NCBI GenBank assembly: GCA_020350425.1
Contig: CP070716.1
Span: 1,832,887-1,893,880, forward strand
DNA: 60,994 nucleotides
Origin: Gemmatimonadota bacterium
Lineage (GTDB): Bacteria > Gemmatimonadota > Gemmatimonadetes > Gemmatimonadales > GWC2-71-9
Direction: 5' to 3'
Each line of letters starts with the position of its first letter. Positions within the stretch are counted from its first letter, which is position 1. Of the stretch, positions 46,758-53,509 are shown piece after piece. A program made the translations under genes and the position numbers. A model generated the notes under the pieces. The model ran no database searches. It had not been told where the DNA came from and worked only from the letters and a program-made list of their open reading frames with translations.

Positions 46758-46786
46758 TTGACAGGCTCCCGACCGGGACGTAAGCT
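46758..46786 (+). promoter_or_regulatory. Promoter of the Crp-family gene, apparently leaderless
   Basis: TTGACA (46758-46763, a full consensus -35), 17 bases, TAAGCT (46781-46786), then 10 bases to the ATG at 46797. There is no Shine-Dalgarno, so the transcript probably begins at or just before the start codon. Confidence 0.65.
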
Positions 46787-46796
46787 AGGCCTGTTT

Positions 46797-47495
46797 ATGA
46801 GCGACAAAGCCTCAAGCGACCCCTCGCAGTCGGCGGCCGAACGGCTCAAGAGCATCCCGCTCTTCACACAGCTCAGCGAGGTGGAGGTCACCCGCATCAC
46901 CGAGGTGGCGCGGGAGCGCACCTACCCCAAGAACAGCGTGATTCTGTTCGAGGACGACCCCGGCGACGCCCTCTACGTGGTGCTGACCGGGGAGGTAAAG
47001 GTGGTGCTGATCGGTGAAGACGGGCGGGAGGTCATTCTGTCGATCCTCCGCTCCGGAGACTTCTTCGGGGAGATGTCTCTCATCGACGACCAGCCCCGTT
47101 CGGCGCACGTCATCGCCACGGAGGATTCCAATCTCCTCGTGCTGCGGCGAGACGAGTTTCGGCAGTGCCTCGAGGACGCGCCACGCATCGCCCTCGGGCT
47201 GCTGCAGGCGCTGTCGCGGCGCCTGCGGCGTGCCGACGACAAGATCGGCGGCCTCGTGCTGCTCGACGTGAACGGGCGTGTCGCGCGGGTCCTGGTGGAG
47301 CTCGCCGACGAGCACGACGGCGAGCACGTGCCGCGCAAGATCACCCACCACATGCTGGCCCAGATGATCGGATCGAGCCGCGAGACCGTCTCGCGCACGA
47401 TCCGGGATCTGGGAGAGCGGGGCCTCATCAAGGTGTCCCGGAAGGACATCACCATCGTGGACCGCCCGGGCCTCGAGGAGCTCGCCGGGCTCTAG
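46797..47495 (+). CDS. Crp/Fnr-family transcriptional regulator
   Basis: A 232-residue regulator. The cyclic-nucleotide-binding-like domain (about 18-140) has SIPLFTQLSEVEVTRI, GDALYVVLTGEVKVVL, and GDFFGEMSLIDDQPRSAHV, including the FGE-x-x-L and R-S-A positions that contact cAMP in CRP. The C-terminal winged helix (about 165-225) shows KITHHMLAQMIGSSRETVSRTIRDLGERGLI. No Fnr-type cysteines are visible. ATG 46797 is preferred to an upstream TTG since the upstream codons lie in the -35/-10 promoter. Confidence 0.93.
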   Translation: MSDKASSDPSQSAAERLKSIPLFTQLSEVEVTRITEVARERTYPKNSVILFEDDPGDALYVVLTGEVKVVLIGEDGREVILSILRSGDFFGEMSLIDDQPRSAHVIATEDSNLLVLRRDEFRQCLEDAPRIALGLLQALSRRLRRADDKIGGLVLLDVNGRVARVLVELADEHDGEHVPRKITHHMLAQMIGSSRETVSRTIRDLGERGLIKVSRKDITIVDRPGLEELAGL

Positions 47496-47530
47496 TGAGC
47501 CATGTCACGGATCACGCGTGACTGCGCCGC

Positions 47531-47560
47531 TTGTCTGACGGCCGCCCCGGCCGGTAGGTT
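47531..47560 (+). promoter_or_regulatory. Promoter of MBL-CsgG genes
   Basis: TTGTCT (47531-47536), 18 bases, TAGGTT (47555-47560). The start is expected near 47567, at an ATG that opens an 11-codon frame (47568-47603) overlapping the MBL start at 47588. Confidence 0.5.
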
Positions 47561-47587
47561 CGCGGGGATGACGGCCCGACCGGTCGG

Positions 47588-48463
47588 ATGGCCTACACGA
47601 TAACGATCTGGGGCGCGCGGGGGTCCATTCCGACCCCCGGGGCGCTGACCACCCGCTACGGGGGGAATACCCCCTGTGTGGCCGTCGAGCAGAGCCGCGA
47701 GGCGGGCGACCGGCTCGTCATCCTGGATGCGGGCACCGGCATCCGGCTGCTGGGGCAGGAGCTGGTCGAGCGCGGCAATGGCCCGCTGCAGGTGGACCTG
47801 CTGCTGAGCCACACGCACTGGGACCACATCCAGGGCATCCCGTTCTTCGCGCCGTTCTTCAACGACGGGAACGAGGTGCGCGTCTGGGGGTCCAAGCAGG
47901 GAGACGTCGATCTCGACGTCATCCTGCGGCAGCAGATGCACCCCGTGGTGTTCCCGGTGCCGCTGGACCGCGTCTCCGCGGAGCTGTTCGTGGAGCACGT
48001 CGAGCCGGGCACGTTCGAGATCGACGGGTTCCAGGTGGAGGCGTTCCGGCTGCGCCACCCGGGCAACACGTTGGGCTACCGGCTGCAGCCGATGGGGGGC
48101 GGGGCCAGCATGGCCTACGTCACCGACAACGAGCTGGGACCGGGCGGGGAGTACGATGTCGGGCCGAAGTGGCGCCGCGAGTTGGTGCGGTTTCTCAAGG
48201 GCGTGGATGTGCTGATCCACGACGCGATGTACACGCCCGAGGATCTGGAGCAGCACCGCGGTTGGGGGCACTCATCGTATGCCGAGGCGGTGACCCTGGC
48301 CGCCGACGCGGGGGTCGGGCGGCTCGTGCTATTCCACCACCGCCCCGAGCACGACGACGCGGCCATGGACAACTTGGTCGAGGCGGCACAGACAGAAGCG
48401 GAGGAGACGGGGCAGACCCTCGAGGTGATCGCCGCCACCGAAGGGATGCAGCTCACCCTCTGA
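47588..48463 (+). CDS. Metallo-beta-lactamase-fold protein (phosphodiesterase/PqqB-like type)
   Basis: A 291-residue MBL protein: ITIWGARGSIPTPG, the NTPCVAV motif, VILDAGTGIRLLG, the metal motif LSHTHWDHIQGIPFF, and FRLRHPGNTLGYRL, DAMYTPEDLEQHRGWGHSS and LVLFHHRPEHDD. The GxRGSxPTPG start marks the group of MBL proteins including cyclic-nucleotide phosphodiesterases and sensor-associated hydrolases. With the Crp-type regulator one gene away, a link to cyclic nucleotides is possible but not shown. Confidence 0.88.
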   Translation: MAYTITIWGARGSIPTPGALTTRYGGNTPCVAVEQSREAGDRLVILDAGTGIRLLGQELVERGNGPLQVDLLLSHTHWDHIQGIPFFAPFFNDGNEVRVWGSKQGDVDLDVILRQQMHPVVFPVPLDRVSAELFVEHVEPGTFEIDGFQVEAFRLRHPGNTLGYRLQPMGGGASMAYVTDNELGPGGEYDVGPKWRRELVRFLKGVDVLIHDAMYTPEDLEQHRGWGHSSYAEAVTLAADAGVGRLVLFHHRPEHDDAAMDNLVEAAQTEAEETGQTLEVIAATEGMQLTL

Positions 48464-48482
48464 GAGGACGGAGGAGGAACTC

Positions 48483-49184
48483 ATGCGCTGGCGTTCGGTA
48501 ACGGTTCTGGCCCTAGCAGCGGGCCTCGCAATACCTCCAGTCGTCCGCGGACAGGACGTGCGGCCGGGCGTCGCCGTGATGCCGTTCGAGGACGGCGGCT
48601 CCTACGGCCAGGACGCGGAGGACTTCGAGGCGCTCACCGTCGGGATGCAGCAGCTGCTGATCACGGAGTTCGCCATCAACGACGCGCTACGGGTGGTTGA
48701 GCGCGGCCGCATCAACGACCTCCTCGCCGAGATGGAGCTGGGGGCCTCCGGCACGGTGGACGCCGGCACGGCGGCCGCCGTGGGCAAGCTGGTGGGTGCG
48801 AAGTACATGGTGTTCGGCAGCTTCATCGACTGGTACGGTGACTTCCGCGTGAACGCGCGGATCGTCAACGTGGAGACCGGCGAAATCGTGAAGGTGGAGC
48901 GGGGCCGCGAGAAGCGGGAGAACCTCTTCCCGATGGTCGTGGACCTGGCCAACAACATCACCAAGGGACTCGACCTCCCGGTGTTGACGGACCAGGCCTA
49001 CCAGGGGCGCCGCGATCGGTCGGAGGACATTCCGCAGGAGGCCCTCAGGCTCTACAGCAAGGCCCTGCTGTATCAGGACCGTGGTGACACGGAACGTGCG
49101 GTGGAGCTGTTCAGTCAGGTCACCCGAGACTTCCCCCAGTACACGGAAGCTCAGGAGGCCTTGAGACAGATCGAGCAGGGATAG
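48483..49184 (+). CDS. CsgG/FlgO-like periplasmic protein with a TPR-like tail
   Basis: A 233-residue protein with a signal peptide (about 1-23). The core resembles CsgG/HfaB/FlgO-type domains: RPGVAVMPFEDGGSYG, LTVGMQQLLITEFAINDALRVVERGRINDLLAEM, AAAVGKLVGAKYMVFGSFIDWYGDFRVNARIVNVETGEIV. The last 45 residues form one TPR-like pair (ALRLYSKALLYQDRGDTERAVELFSQVTRDFP). No lipobox cysteine is present. GGAGGAG lies before the ATG. Pore formation is not implied by this shorter form. Confidence 0.85.
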   Translation: MRWRSVTVLALAAGLAIPPVVRGQDVRPGVAVMPFEDGGSYGQDAEDFEALTVGMQQLLITEFAINDALRVVERGRINDLLAEMELGASGTVDAGTAAAVGKLVGAKYMVFGSFIDWYGDFRVNARIVNVETGEIVKVERGREKRENLFPMVVDLANNITKGLDLPVLTDQAYQGRRDRSEDIPQEALRLYSKALLYQDRGDTERAVELFSQVTRDFPQYTEAQEALRQIEQG

Positions 49185-49196
49185 TAACATAGGCGC

Positions 49197-49979
49197 GTGA
49201 CGGCGCCTGTTGCGGCACTCGGTCAGGGAGTAGCGCGCTCGATCGCCTTATTGGGGGCGCTGGCGCGCTTTTCCTTTCTTACCCTGGAGGCGGCCCGATG
49301 GCTGCCCCGGGCGGGGCGCCGCGTCGCCTTCCGCGTGCTCCTGAGGCAGGTGTGGTTCACCGCGCTGCAAGCCCTGCCGCTGATCCTCGTCCTCTCCTCG
49401 ATCCTCAGCTTCCTCGTCATCTCGCAGGCCGTGCGGGAGCTCGGGCGCCTCGGCGCGACCGAGCTGCTCGGGCGGCTCATGGTGATCGCGATCGTGCGGG
49501 AACTGGGCCCGCTCATCACGGCCCTCGCCGTCGCGGGCCGGTCGGGCACGGCCATCGCTGCCGAGCTGGCCACCAACAAGGTGATGGGCGAGATCAATGC
49601 GCTCGAGGGCATGGGCATCGACCCCTTGCATTACCACGTGCTGCCGCGCTTCGGGGCGGCGATTCTCTCGGTCCTCGGGCTCATCATCATGTTCGACCTG
49701 GTGGCCATCGTCTCGGGCCTGCTGGCGGCCACCGCGAACGGCATGGTGCCGGCGCGTTACTTCGACATCGTGCTCGCCTCGCTCGCATTGGGCGACGTGT
49801 GGGTGACGGTAACCAAGGGGCTCCTGTTCGGGATCATCGTGGGCACGATCCCGAGCTTCCAGGGCTTGCGAGTGCGGGGCTCGCCGACCGAGATCCCGGT
49901 GGCGGCCAGCCAGGCCGCTGTCGGCAGTATCATCGCCATCTTCATCTGCTCCGGCCTCTTCGTGTTCCTGTTCGCATGA
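49197..49979 (+). CDS. mlaE: MlaE-family lipid ABC transporter permease
   Basis: A 260-residue permease with about five helices. The MlaE motif is present: RELGPLITALAVAGRSGTAIAAELATNKVMGEINALEGMGIDP. Later segments FGAAILSVLGLIIMFDLVAIV and KGLLFGIIVGTIPSFQGLRV are also typical. It belongs to the system that moves phospholipids between membranes in diderms. GTG start 49197; the ATPase gene overlaps its stop (ATGA). Confidence 0.92.
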   Translation: MTAPVAALGQGVARSIALLGALARFSFLTLEAARWLPRAGRRVAFRVLLRQVWFTALQALPLILVLSSILSFLVISQAVRELGRLGATELLGRLMVIAIVRELGPLITALAVAGRSGTAIAAELATNKVMGEINALEGMGIDPLHYHVLPRFGAAILSVLGLIIMFDLVAIVSGLLAATANGMVPARYFDIVLASLALGDVWVTVTKGLLFGIIVGTIPSFQGLRVRGSPTEIPVAASQAAVGSIIAIFICSGLFVFLFA

Positions 49980-50644
49980 CCGCACCGCTCCAGTTCGAGG
50001 ACGTGGCCCTGCCGGGGTTGGGCTCGCGGATCACGCTGGAGGTCCCGGAGCACCGGGCGGTGGTGGTGACCGGACCCGAGGCGAGCGGGGTGGATGCCCT
50101 GCCCGGGTTCGCCCTGGCCCTGGCCCGTCCGGCCGCCGGCCGGGTGCTGCTCTTCGGGGAGGACGTGGCCAACTTGTCGCGCCGCGACGCGCTCGCCTTC
50201 CGACGACAGGTGGGATACCTTCCCGCCGGCGACGGCCTGCTGCACAACCTTTCGCTCAGGGACAACGTCGCTCTGCCCCTGCGCTACGGCAGCGACTTCA
50301 CCGAGCGCGAGATCGACGGTCGGATCCGGATCATGCTGACCCTCGTCAAGCTGGCCGATGCGCCGGACCTCCGTCCCGCCGACGCCACCGACGAGCAGCG
50401 CCGGCGCGCGGCCCTGGCGCGTGCCCTAGCGTTCGACCCCGGCCTGGTGATCCTCGCAGATCCATTCGACGGGCTGACCACCCGCGCAGCCGCCGAGCTG
50501 CTGGAGCTTGCGCGAGGTGGTGAAACCGAGACAGGTTCGAGGCGCACCGTGTTCATGACGGGGCAGTCCATTCCCCAACTGCTCGAGCCGCGGGTCGAGG
50601 TGCGGTACCGCCTCGCCCAGGGTGAGCTCGTGCGCGACGCGTGA
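49976..50644 (+). CDS. MlaF-like ABC ATPase with all catalytic motifs degenerate
   Basis: A 222-residue protein aligned by eye along its full length to MlaF-type ATPases, but without the working residues. The Walker A position reads TGPEASGVDAL (no GKS/GKT), the Q-loop reads VGYLPAGDG (no Gln), the LSGG signature region reads ADATDEQRRRAALARAL, Walker B reads GLVILADPFDGL (DE lost) and the H-loop reads FMTGQSIPQ (no His). The scaffold of strands and helices, for example LALARPAAGRVLLFGEDVANLSRRD and LHNLSLRDNVALPLRY, remains. It is in the correct operon position between permease and MCE protein, so it is most likely a structural subunit. Confidence 0.9.
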   Translation: MTAPLQFEDVALPGLGSRITLEVPEHRAVVVTGPEASGVDALPGFALALARPAAGRVLLFGEDVANLSRRDALAFRRQVGYLPAGDGLLHNLSLRDNVALPLRYGSDFTEREIDGRIRIMLTLVKLADAPDLRPADATDEQRRRAALARALAFDPGLVILADPFDGLTTRAAAELLELARGGETETGSRRTVFMTGQSIPQLLEPRVEVRYRLAQGELVRDA

Positions 50645-50657
50645 GCGGGAGGTAGCC

Positions 50658-51575
50658 ACGGGACGTACCGATTTTCTGGTCGGGCTCTTCATCCTGGTGA
50701 CCATCGGGATCGTGGTGGGCACCGCCGTGCTGACGAGCGGCCTGCTTGAGGGTCGCTACGACCTGCACATGCGGGCGGCGGAGGCCGAGGGCCTCAACCA
50801 GGACACGCGGGTGGAGCTCCAGGGGCTCCAGATCGGGCGGGTCACGGCCGTCAACCCGCACCTCGATTCCACGAGCAACCGGCTCGACTTCATCGCCACA
50901 CTGTCGATCCGGGAGCGGTTCCCCGACGGCACGCGCCTGCGGCTCCCCGTGGGCACGCAGGCGGTCATCGCTCCGCCCCCGACCCTCGTCGGCGCCGCCA
51001 TCATCGAGTTCGAGATGCCACCCCCCTCCCCGGCGACCGCCTACCTGGTGCCGGGCGACACGCTCGATTCGGAGCGGCGCGCCAACATGATGGAGGCCCT
51101 GCTCGACATCGCCACCGGCATGAAGGGCGACATGCTCGAGGCACTCACCGAGACGCGGCAGTTGGTCGTCAAGACGACCGAGGCGGTCGATCAGACGGGC
51201 TCCCTGCTGGCGAGTGCACGCCCCCAGCTCGAGACCGTGCTGGACCGGCTCTCCCAGAGCCTGGAGCGCACCAACCGCATCCTCGCGCAGGTCGAGCCGC
51301 GCGTCGGACCGATGACCGACAGCCTCATGATCGCGCTCGAGACGACCAACGAGCTGCTGTCGGAGCTCGACAGCCTCGCCGTCACGGCACACGACATGGC
51401 CAGTGACAATCGGGAGGACATCGACTTCGCCATCGACAAGCTCGCACGCTCCGCGGTGATCCTGGAGCACTTCGCCGAGCAACTCAGCCGCCGGCCGCTG
51501 CGGATGCTCTGGGGCGTCACGCCTCCACCGCCGCCGGACTCCACCGTCCCCGACAGCACGACGCCGTCGCCATGA
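50658..51575 (+). CDS. mlaD: MlaD-like MCE-domain protein, apparent ACG start
   Basis: A protein of about 305 residues: an N-terminal transmembrane helix (TDFLVGLFILVTIGIVVGTAVL), then an MCE domain (about 35-120; YDLHMRAAEAEGLNQDTRVELQGLQIGRV) and a helical tail with DRLSQSLERTNRIL, ending in a Pro-rich stretch. The family starts near MxxRTDFLVG, but here the codon is ACG 50658, five bases after GGAGG (50648-50652). GTG 50622 is an alternative with a 23-base overlap and no Shine-Dalgarno. It is the substrate-binding subunit of the Mla-type system. Confidence 0.88.
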   Translation, partial: TGRTDFLVGLFILVTIGIVVGTAVLTSGLLEGRYDLHMRAAEAEGLNQDTRVELQGLQIGRVTAVNPHLDSTSNRLDFIATLSIRERFPDGTRLRLPVGTQAVIAPPPTLVGAAIIEFEMPPPSPATAYLVPGDTLDSERRANMMEALLDIATGMKGDMLEALTETRQLVVKTTEAVDQTGSLLASARPQLETVLDRLSQSLERTNRILAQVEPRVGPMTDSLMIALETTNELLSELDSLAVTAHDMASDNREDIDFAIDKLARSAVILEHFAEQLSRRPLRMLWGVTPPPPPDSTVPDSTTPSP

Positions 51576-53509
51576 AGTACTGCCTGCTTCACACGGGCAC
51601 GCTCGAGCTCGACACGATCTCGGGAGCGCTGGATTCCGAGGGGATCACGCCCCAGCTCGTGGAGTCGCTCGGCGAGCTCGCAGTGGCCGGGTCCCCCACC
51701 GTCTTGGTGCTCGGCGCGGCGAACCGCGACCGCTTCCCCACCGACCGGCTGCGCCGCTTCGTGGGCGAGGGCGGCGCCATCGTCGCGACCGGGGCGCCCG
51801 ACGAGCAGGACGTCCCCGCGGAGCTGCCCGAAGACCTGATTGCGTCGTTCGTACCGCACCCCTGGCAGCCGCGCCAGCTCCTCGTGGCGCTGCGCGGCGC
51901 CTACCGCGAGGCGGCCGCCCGCGCCGACGCCATTCGCGCGCGCCAGGAAGCGGCGTTCCGCACGCGGGAGATCAAGGAGCTCACCCGCATCGGGATGGCG
52001 CTCTCGACGGAGCGCGACTACCACACGCTGCTCGAGCTCATTCTCTCACAGGCGTTGCGCATCACCGGGTCGGACGGGGGCAGCCTCTACATCGTGGAGG
52101 AGCAGGAGGACGGCACCAAACGGTTGCGGTTCACGCTCTCCCAGAGCGTGTCCCGGCCAGACATTCCGTTCGTCGAATACACGATGGCGATGGACACGAG
52201 GAGCATTGCCGGCTACGCGGCCACGACGGGCGAGCCGCTGGTGATCGACGACGTGTACTTCCTGCCGCCGGACGTGGACTACACATTCAACCGCTCGTTC
52301 GACGAGAAGTACGGCTACCGCTCGAAGTCGATGCTCACCGTCCCGATGAAGGACCACAAGGACGAGGTCATCGGCGTGCTGCAGATTCTCAACCGCAAGC
52401 GCCACGGTGACGCCAAGCTGACCGAGCCGGAGGACTTCGACGCCGAGATCATCCCCTACACGCACCGCCTGGTGGAGCTGGTCTCGGCCATGGCGGGGCA
52501 GGCCGCGGTCTCGATCGAGAATAGTCAGCTCTACGAGGACATCGAGCGCCTCTTCGAGGGGTTCGTGCGGGCCTCGGTCACCGCCATCGAGCAGCGCGAC
52601 CCCACCACGTTCGGCCACTCGGGACGGGTCGCCTCGATGACGGTGGGGCTGGCCGAGGCGGTGGACCGGGTGCACGACGGCCCGTACCGCCACGTCCGGT
52701 TCTCCAAGGAGGAGATCCGGGAGATCCGCTACGCTGGTCTGTTGCACGACTTCGGCAAGGTCGGTGTGCGCGAACAGGTGCTGGTCAAGGCGAAGAAGCT
52801 CTACCCGCCGGACCTCGCGCTCGTCAAGCAGCGCTTCGCGTTCATCCGGCGCACGACCGAGGCAGAGTTCCAGCGGCAGCGCGCCGAGTACCTCGAGCAG
52901 CACGGCACGGAGGGATACCGGGAGTTCCTGCGGACGCTCGAGGGAGAGCACGGTGAGCATCTCCGGGAGCTCGACGAGTTCATGCACCTCGTGCTCGACG
53001 CGAATGAGCCCACGGTGCTCCCCGAGGGGAGCTTCGAGAATCTGGTGCGGTACGCGGAGCAGTACTACGAGGATCTCGACGGCAAGCGGCAGCCCTATCT
53101 CACCGGCGACGAGGTGCGGTTCCTGAGCATTCGCAAGGGGAGTCTGGACGAGAGCGAGCGGCTGGAGATCGAGAGCCACGTGACGCACACGTACCGGTTC
53201 CTGATGCAAATCCCCTGGACCAAGGAGCTCCAGTCGATTCCGTCGATCGCCTACGGCCACCACGAGAAGCTGGACGGCTCGGGGTACCCACGGAGGGTCC
53301 CGGGCGATCAGATCCCGATCCAGACCCGCATGATGACAATCGCCGACATCTTCGACGCGCTCACGGCCGCCGATCGCCCCTACAAGCGCGCGGTCCCCGC
53401 CCCCAGGGCGCTGGACATTCTGCGGACCGAGACGGAGGCGGGGATGCTCGATGCGGATCTGCTGAGGCTGTTCGTCGAGGCCAACGTGTTCGCCAAGCAG
53501 GACGAGTGA
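51572..53509 (+). CDS. GAF/HD-GYP domain protein with a large insertion
   Basis: A 645-residue soluble protein. Residues 1-110 resemble a degenerate receiver (LAVAGSPTVLVLGAANRD), followed by a coiled linker, a GAF domain (about 140-325, GGSLYIVEEQEDG, RSIAGYAATTGEPLVIDDV) and an HD-GYP phosphodiesterase domain: LLHDFGKVGVREQVLVK (His392/Asp393), and HHEKLDGSGYPRRVPGDQIP (His563/His564). Between these motifs lie about 170 residues; HD-GYP proteins usually have about 60. The extra 100-110 residues are helical and charged (ERRTEAEFQRQRAEYLEQ-like). Cyclic-di-GMP hydrolysis is plausible. ATG 51572 overlaps the mlaD stop. Confidence 0.88.
   Translation: MKYCLLHTGTLELDTISGALDSEGITPQLVESLGELAVAGSPTVLVLGAANRDRFPTDRLRRFVGEGGAIVATGAPDEQDVPAELPEDLIASFVPHPWQPRQLLVALRGAYREAAARADAIRARQEAAFRTREIKELTRIGMALSTERDYHTLLELILSQALRITGSDGGSLYIVEEQEDGTKRLRFTLSQSVSRPDIPFVEYTMAMDTRSIAGYAATTGEPLVIDDVYFLPPDVDYTFNRSFDEKYGYRSKSMLTVPMKDHKDEVIGVLQILNRKRHGDAKLTEPEDFDAEIIPYTHRLVELVSAMAGQAAVSIENSQLYEDIERLFEGFVRASVTAIEQRDPTTFGHSGRVASMTVGLAEAVDRVHDGPYRHVRFSKEEIREIRYAGLLHDFGKVGVREQVLVKAKKLYPPDLALVKQRFAFIRRTTEAEFQRQRAEYLEQHGTEGYREFLRTLEGEHGEHLRELDEFMHLVLDANEPTVLPEGSFENLVRYAEQYYEDLDGKRQPYLTGDEVRFLSIRKGSLDESERLEIESHVTHTYRFLMQIPWTKELQSIPSIAYGHHEKLDGSGYPRRVPGDQIPIQTRMMTIADIFDALTAADRPYKRAVPAPRALDILRTETEAGMLDADLLRLFVEANVFAKQDE

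Follow-up and report, generated by a model that had tools for sequence, protein, structure and literature searches.

Three adjoining genes at 49197-51575 of the window, the 60,994-nt stretch of contig CP070716.1 (GCA_020350425.1) to which coordinates refer unless a locus is named, encode what is, by its sequence, an additional, diverged Mla-type (MlaE-F-D) complex whose ABC ATPase has turned pseudo-ATPase. The middle gene, lying between MlaE and MCE/MlaD genes, specifies an ABC ATPase-like protein that we refer to as psi-MlaF. An earlier note on this DNA had described this protein as devoid of every catalytic motif and its reading frame as intact. The frame is indeed open at exactly 49976-50644 (+), giving a protein of 222 aa, and an alignment of psi-MlaF members with a reference set of 14 intact Gemmatimonadota MlaF sequences bears out the loss of all the motifs.

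Gene layout and related systems

The trio lies on one strand within a series of almost touching genes, in the order CRP-like, MBL-fold, CsgG-like, MlaE' (the permease), psi-MlaF, MCE and GAF/HD-GYP (Table 1). The start of psi-mlaF overlaps the stop of mlaE' by 4 bases, as does the HD-GYP gene the end of the MCE gene; for the latter, a GTG at 50652 is an equally possible start. The MCE protein (roughly 300 aa) consists of an N-terminal hydrophobic anchor, with a hydrophobic stretch in residues 17-40, followed by one MCE domain (PF02470, 36.4 bits with a cut-off of 25.1), a long helical region and a Pro-rich tail. A low-confidence structure model (two-row alignment, pLDDT 41) places helices at 147-290, and the protein shows no evident C-terminal beta-barrel.

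Table 1. Positions of the trio, its neighbours and the former catalytic motifs in the window
Feature	Position	Strand	Evidence or context
CRP-like gene	46758-47495	+	upstream of MBL-fold gene
MBL-fold (metallo-beta-lactamase-fold) gene	47588-48463	+	upstream of CsgG-like gene
CsgG-like periplasmic protein, upstream operon partner	48483..49184	+	PF03783 2.1e-16
MlaE' permease	49197..49979	+	PF02405 4.5e-55; 187 bits vs cut-off 22.5
Coupling-helix region of MlaE', residues 126-146, TNKVMGEINALEGMGIDPLHY	49572..49634	+	column comparison with ordinary MlaE
psi-MlaF, ABC ATPase fold without catalytic residues	49976..50644	+	Pfam ABC_tran PF00005 3.1e-9
Former Walker A, residues 33-40, GPEASGVD	50072..50095	+	Lys replaced by V/I/L in 25/25
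Former Q-loop, residues 81-88, YLPAGDGL	50216..50239	+	Gln gone in 23/25
Conserved helical / MlaE-facing stretch, residues 89-104, LHNLSLRDNVALPLRY	50240..50287	+	among the family's most conserved
Former ABC signature, residues 137-144, ATDEQRRR	50384..50407	+	Gly-Gly gone, E140 present, 25/25
Former Walker B and D-loop, residues 157-168, LVILADPFDGLT	50444..50479	+	Asp-Glu pair in 0 members
Former H-loop, residues 195-199, TGQSI	50558..50572	+	His gone in 25/25
MCE/MlaD-like protein	50622..51575	+	PF02470 6.2e-9; orthologues at same loci
GAF/HD-GYP protein, downstream operon partner	51572..53509	+	HD_5 and GAF domains; synteny

In its gene set, MlaE-MlaF-MlaD, the trio resembles the MlaFEDB systems of E. 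coli and A. baumannii, from which it differs in that the ATPase subunit lacks both the catalytic residues and the C-terminal extension, and in that no MlaB, MlaC or MlaA gene adjoins it. PqiB and LetB are MCE lipid conduits whose operons contain no ATPase and which work with PqiA/LetA-type membrane proteins; the psi-MlaF system instead uses an MlaE and an ABC-fold subunit. The MlaEFD system of Veillonella parvula is likewise made up of three genes, lacks MlaABC and has an MCE protein extended by a long helical region (PMC10665443); the differences are the C-terminal beta-barrel, not evident in the MCE protein of the trio, and the ATPase, dead only in the system described here. Such long MlaD proteins are thought to span the periplasm as a transenvelope bridge (PMC10665443).

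Catalytic residues of psi-MlaF and the coupling helix of its permease

Within the window's psi-MlaF, the Walker A Lys and Ser are replaced by V39 and D40, the Q-loop Gln by A84, the SGG of the signature by TDE at 138-140, the Walker B Asp by A161 and the catalytic Glu by D162, the D-loop Asp by T168 and the H-loop His by Q197. Column counts taken over the 25 complete members tabulated show that the loss is common to all of them: in addition to the changes given in Table 1, the Ser/Thr adjoining the Walker A Lys is gone in 25/25, the D-loop Asp is Thr in 23/25, and position 35, within the former Walker A, is acidic in 24/25. Two extra members read by tblastn (L145, L146) have the same losses. 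Single residues do persist here and there, D161 of Walker B in L020/L079 and the catalytic E162 in L022/L084, yet no member has both together. The Gly-rich loop (GxxxSG) is still present. In L031 and L032 (family f3), the Q-loop Gln (Q84) is kept and every other catalytic motif is gone.

The protein nevertheless scores as an ABC domain, reaching 38 bits against the ABC_tran profile PF00005 (cut-off 25), while its score with the curated MlaF equivalog model NF008809 is 70.2 bits against a cut-off of 441. A search of solved structures with the family profile returned A. baumannii MlaF (7d06_B) as the best single-domain match; a structure model of psi-MlaF itself, built from a two-row alignment, was unusable (pLDDT 34). 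At 222 aa the protein stops after the last strand and is without the C-terminal handshake extension, canonical Gemmatimonadota MlaF being about 250 aa long.

Conservation within the family is highest in the Q-loop/helical stretch 82-104, which by ABC architecture faces the coupling helix of the permease. The former catalytic positions, expected to be raised, are only of average conservation (P 0.43). This pattern, the peak at the permease-facing stretch in combination with the merely average former site, fits a subunit that would be kept for permease binding rather than for chemistry. Near the old site the family has acquired new invariant residues, E140, R143, R144, F164 and R190.

The permease is altered as well. 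Sequences of the MlaE' subfamily (E below 1e-72) occur in exactly the 18 of 61 genomes that have psi-MlaF and in 0/43 of the others, and nearly all of the 61, whether or not they carry psi-MlaF, have ordinary MlaE genes. MlaE' retains the general MlaE residues (ELGP, RxG, AE, PR, K207, G223), and its best PDB match is P. aeruginosa MlaE (7ch8_G); with the curated model TIGR00056 it reaches 135.8 bits, below the cut-off of 212.2. Its coupling helix reads N-V-GE in 25/25 members where the canonical one reads M-VTEQ: N127, G131 and E132 are present in 25/25 MlaE', the corresponding residues of ordinary MlaE being M in 16/16, E in 15/16 and Q in 15/16. In MlaFEDB it is this helix, linking TM2 to TM3, that touches MlaF (PMC7790496). 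Going by the 61 genomes compared, MlaE' is a distinct subfamily found only together with psi-MlaF. The earlier note had the ATPase gene coupled to normal MlaE and MlaD; the coupling stands, while the MlaE is not quite normal.

A search for a second mlaF located an intact one (L008/L092) elsewhere in the window's genome, in an ordinary operon; this operon, the genome's one complete ordinary MlaE-MlaF-MCE set, lies at C1:2712.4-2714.3 kb and has all motifs intact. The 99% complete genome G019 carries two complete ordinary Mla systems in addition to the psi-MlaF system. A truncated third MlaE with no MlaF or MCE adjoining was also seen in the window's genome (L093 6675-7784; G000:C1, 1039.3 kb), and its counterpart in G019 (L096) is complete.

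Distribution, selection and history of the trio

Of 61 relatives, 18 have an orthologue of psi-MlaF (E below 1e-30); with an 18-row profile, open frames were recovered from 28 of the 288 genomes of the order, spread over 16 genera in two families. The 28 carriers, uncultivated bacteria whose genomes appear from their many contigs to be mostly or all metagenome-assembled (L033, the only record with a name, is a MAG), show 0 internal stops, one copy ending at a contig end. Pairwise dN/dS is 0.13-0.28 for psi-MlaF (eleven pairs), 0.06-0.16 for MlaE' and 0.15-0.40 for MCE, values by which psi-MlaF is under purifying selection. Chance as the cause of the motif loss is ruled out by the shared loss in these orthologues with their stop-free frames, and the open frames of 28 carriers together with the low dN/dS also lead us to reject assembly error or local decay, in agreement with the earlier view that this is not simple decay.

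Among 395 genomes of the phylum, no true psi-MlaF member was detected outside Gemmatimonadales. The next profile match (G064/L089, E 6e-33) was rejected as a member, being a canonical MlaF with intact motifs that adjoins an ordinary MlaE. The closest intact relative seen is an MlaF of G064 (L101 5227-5934), with an unusually high similarity to psi-MlaF (40% over 149 aa). The psi-MlaF sequences form one clade with support of 100 on a long stem; since the clade is single and fully supported, the catalytic loss, as read from this tree, arose once. Grouping of the clade with MlaF proper receives an AU p of 0.275 with that long stem, a value compatible with descent from MlaF and also with descent from another ABC subfamily.

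Carriers share one gene order: flanked on one side by prfA and prmC, the genes run CRP, MBL, CsgG-like, MlaE', psi-MlaF, MCE and HD-GYP. In eight non-carriers (L136-L143) the same flanking genes enclose a short gap from which mlaE', psi-mlaF and mce are cleanly absent, and the CsgG-like orthologue, directly 5' of mlaE' in carriers, there lies directly 5' of hdgyp. An intact MlaF at this locus, which would have spoken against the earlier note's reading, was found in no relative: every carrier has the dead form, and in the eight non-carriers examined all three genes are missing. A ninth non-carrier (L135 5456-6134; G017:C6) holds a fossil, the first mlaE' codons (LGALARF...) fused to the 3' half of mce by a deletion that removed psi-mlaF. 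In a quick tree of the HD-GYP protein, made without six genomes, carriers lie interspersed among non-carriers, with four changes. The orthologous position in both families, in combination with the fossil and this tree, would indicate that the common ancestor most likely had the trio and that several losses, each of the whole unit, followed. From the repeated losses it follows that the trio is dispensable.

The CRP-like, MBL-fold, CsgG-like and GAF/HD-GYP genes (46758-53509) stay together beside prfA-prmC throughout the order, whether or not the trio is present, and make up a conserved putative signalling module.

A proposed nucleotide-free clamp and the competing explanations

The explanation we favour, at about an even chance, is a clamp model in which psi-MlaF serves MlaE' as a nucleotide-free clamp and the complex lets lipid move or equilibrate in an ATP-independent way. 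Psi-MlaF would still dock on the MlaE' coupling helix and hold the MlaE' dimer open, free of nucleotide, above the MCE ring with its helical extension. Between the inner membrane and the periplasm or outer membrane, lipid could then move or equilibrate; the most likely course is down the lipid's gradient, outward from the inner membrane. In apo MlaFEDB, the V-shaped MlaE dimer opens onto the MlaD channel (PMC10212509), and in E. coli Mla lipid passes from MlaD to MlaC spontaneously, which ATP hydrolysis prevents (reviewed in PMC10212509). Because apo MlaFEDB is open and passes lipid without hydrolysis, a permanently ATP-free complex of MlaE' and psi-MlaF would be expected to stay in an apo-like open state and to conduct passively, probably outward. 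ATP-driven activity would be supplied by the ordinary Mla operon or operons of the same genome. The fuller proposal, a naturally evolved Mla complex that has given up ATP and conducts phospholipid passively, probably in the anterograde direction, beside ordinary ATP-driven Mla complexes in the same cell, is somewhat less probable than the clamp as such and falls a little short of an even chance.

The behaviour of relatives counts against the clamp model. E. coli loses Mla function when the Walker motifs of MlaF are mutated or its C-terminal extension is deleted (PMC7367683), and in Mycobacterium, MceG with a mutated Walker B fails to stabilise Mce complexes (PMC9947336); by these precedents a dead ATPase gives no working system in either E. 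coli Mla or mycobacterial Mce. Since inactivating the ATPase is not enough there, the compensating changes in MlaE' would matter. The repeated loss of the trio, read from the genomes compared, counts against the model too, the trio being dispensable.

Alternatively, psi-MlaF might be a regulatory or sensory subunit of a lipid/envelope sensor or gate, its remodelled site binding another ligand or partner and the complex being coupled to the CRP-like, MBL-fold and HD-GYP genes. The tight operon, in which the HD-GYP frame overlaps the trio and the CRP-like and MBL-fold genes lie upstream, speaks for this, as do the new invariant residues near the old site, but the signalling genes persist in non-carriers and are thus independent of the trio, and the former catalytic positions are no more conserved than average; we regard a regulatory role as unlikely, if worth keeping in mind. 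Slightly less probable still is that MlaE' is powered by an active MlaF from another operon, alone or in a mixed dimer with psi-MlaF, as the earlier note had suggested. In its favour, the genome has an intact MlaF gene at another locus. Each ABC ATP site, however, brings together the Walker A motif of one subunit and the partner's signature, and as psi-MlaF has neither, its homodimer would have no site and a dimer with active MlaF two half sites, which disfavours the heterodimer. Use of another ATPase without psi-MlaF is disfavoured in turn by the coupling-helix sequence of MlaE', which sets it apart from the 16 ordinary MlaEs in the comparison, and by the constant company of psi-MlaF, which is present in 18/18 genomes with MlaE' and would compete for the same groove. 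There is precedent for a borrowed ATPase in MceG, which is common to the mycobacterial Mce systems (PMC9947336). The heterodimeric ABC exporters TM287/288, BmrCD and TAP also contain one ABC subunit without catalytic residues (reviewed in PMC7756269); in these, however, the partner completes a working site, whereas psi-MlaF is without both halves of the site and its operon contains no second ABC gene.

A psi-MlaF that retains nucleotide binding and slow hydrolysis at a non-canonical site appears improbable: the remaining Gly-rich loop and the single residues kept in a few members (Q84, D161, E162) speak for it, but the P-loop is without Lys or Ser/Thr and almost always acidic at position 35, and the signature and H-loop His occur in no member. 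Least credible of all, and very improbable, is a decaying relic kept by chance. The catalytic loss and the repeated loss of the trio, fossil included, would suit a relic, but selection on psi-MlaF in both families contradicts it, as do the low dN/dS, the stop-free frames, the conserved synteny and the family's own conserved motifs. Passive or ATP-independent transport, as in the clamp model, would be the best remaining of the three readings put forward in the earlier note.

The literature library searched yielded no description of an ATPase-dead Mla complex of this type. With permease, MCE protein and ATPase fold kept and the catalytic residues gone, the trio represents a natural ATPase-dead Mla that is directly testable. 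If the clamp model is true, psi-MlaF would clearly exemplify an ABC nucleotide-binding subunit retained in a non-catalytic role, as the sole such subunit in its operon. The direction of lipid movement by Mla, outward or inward, and the role of ATP in it have been debated for years, with laboratory results suggesting that hydrolysis checks a spontaneous flow in the outward direction, and an ATP-free Mla conduit could help settle that direction.
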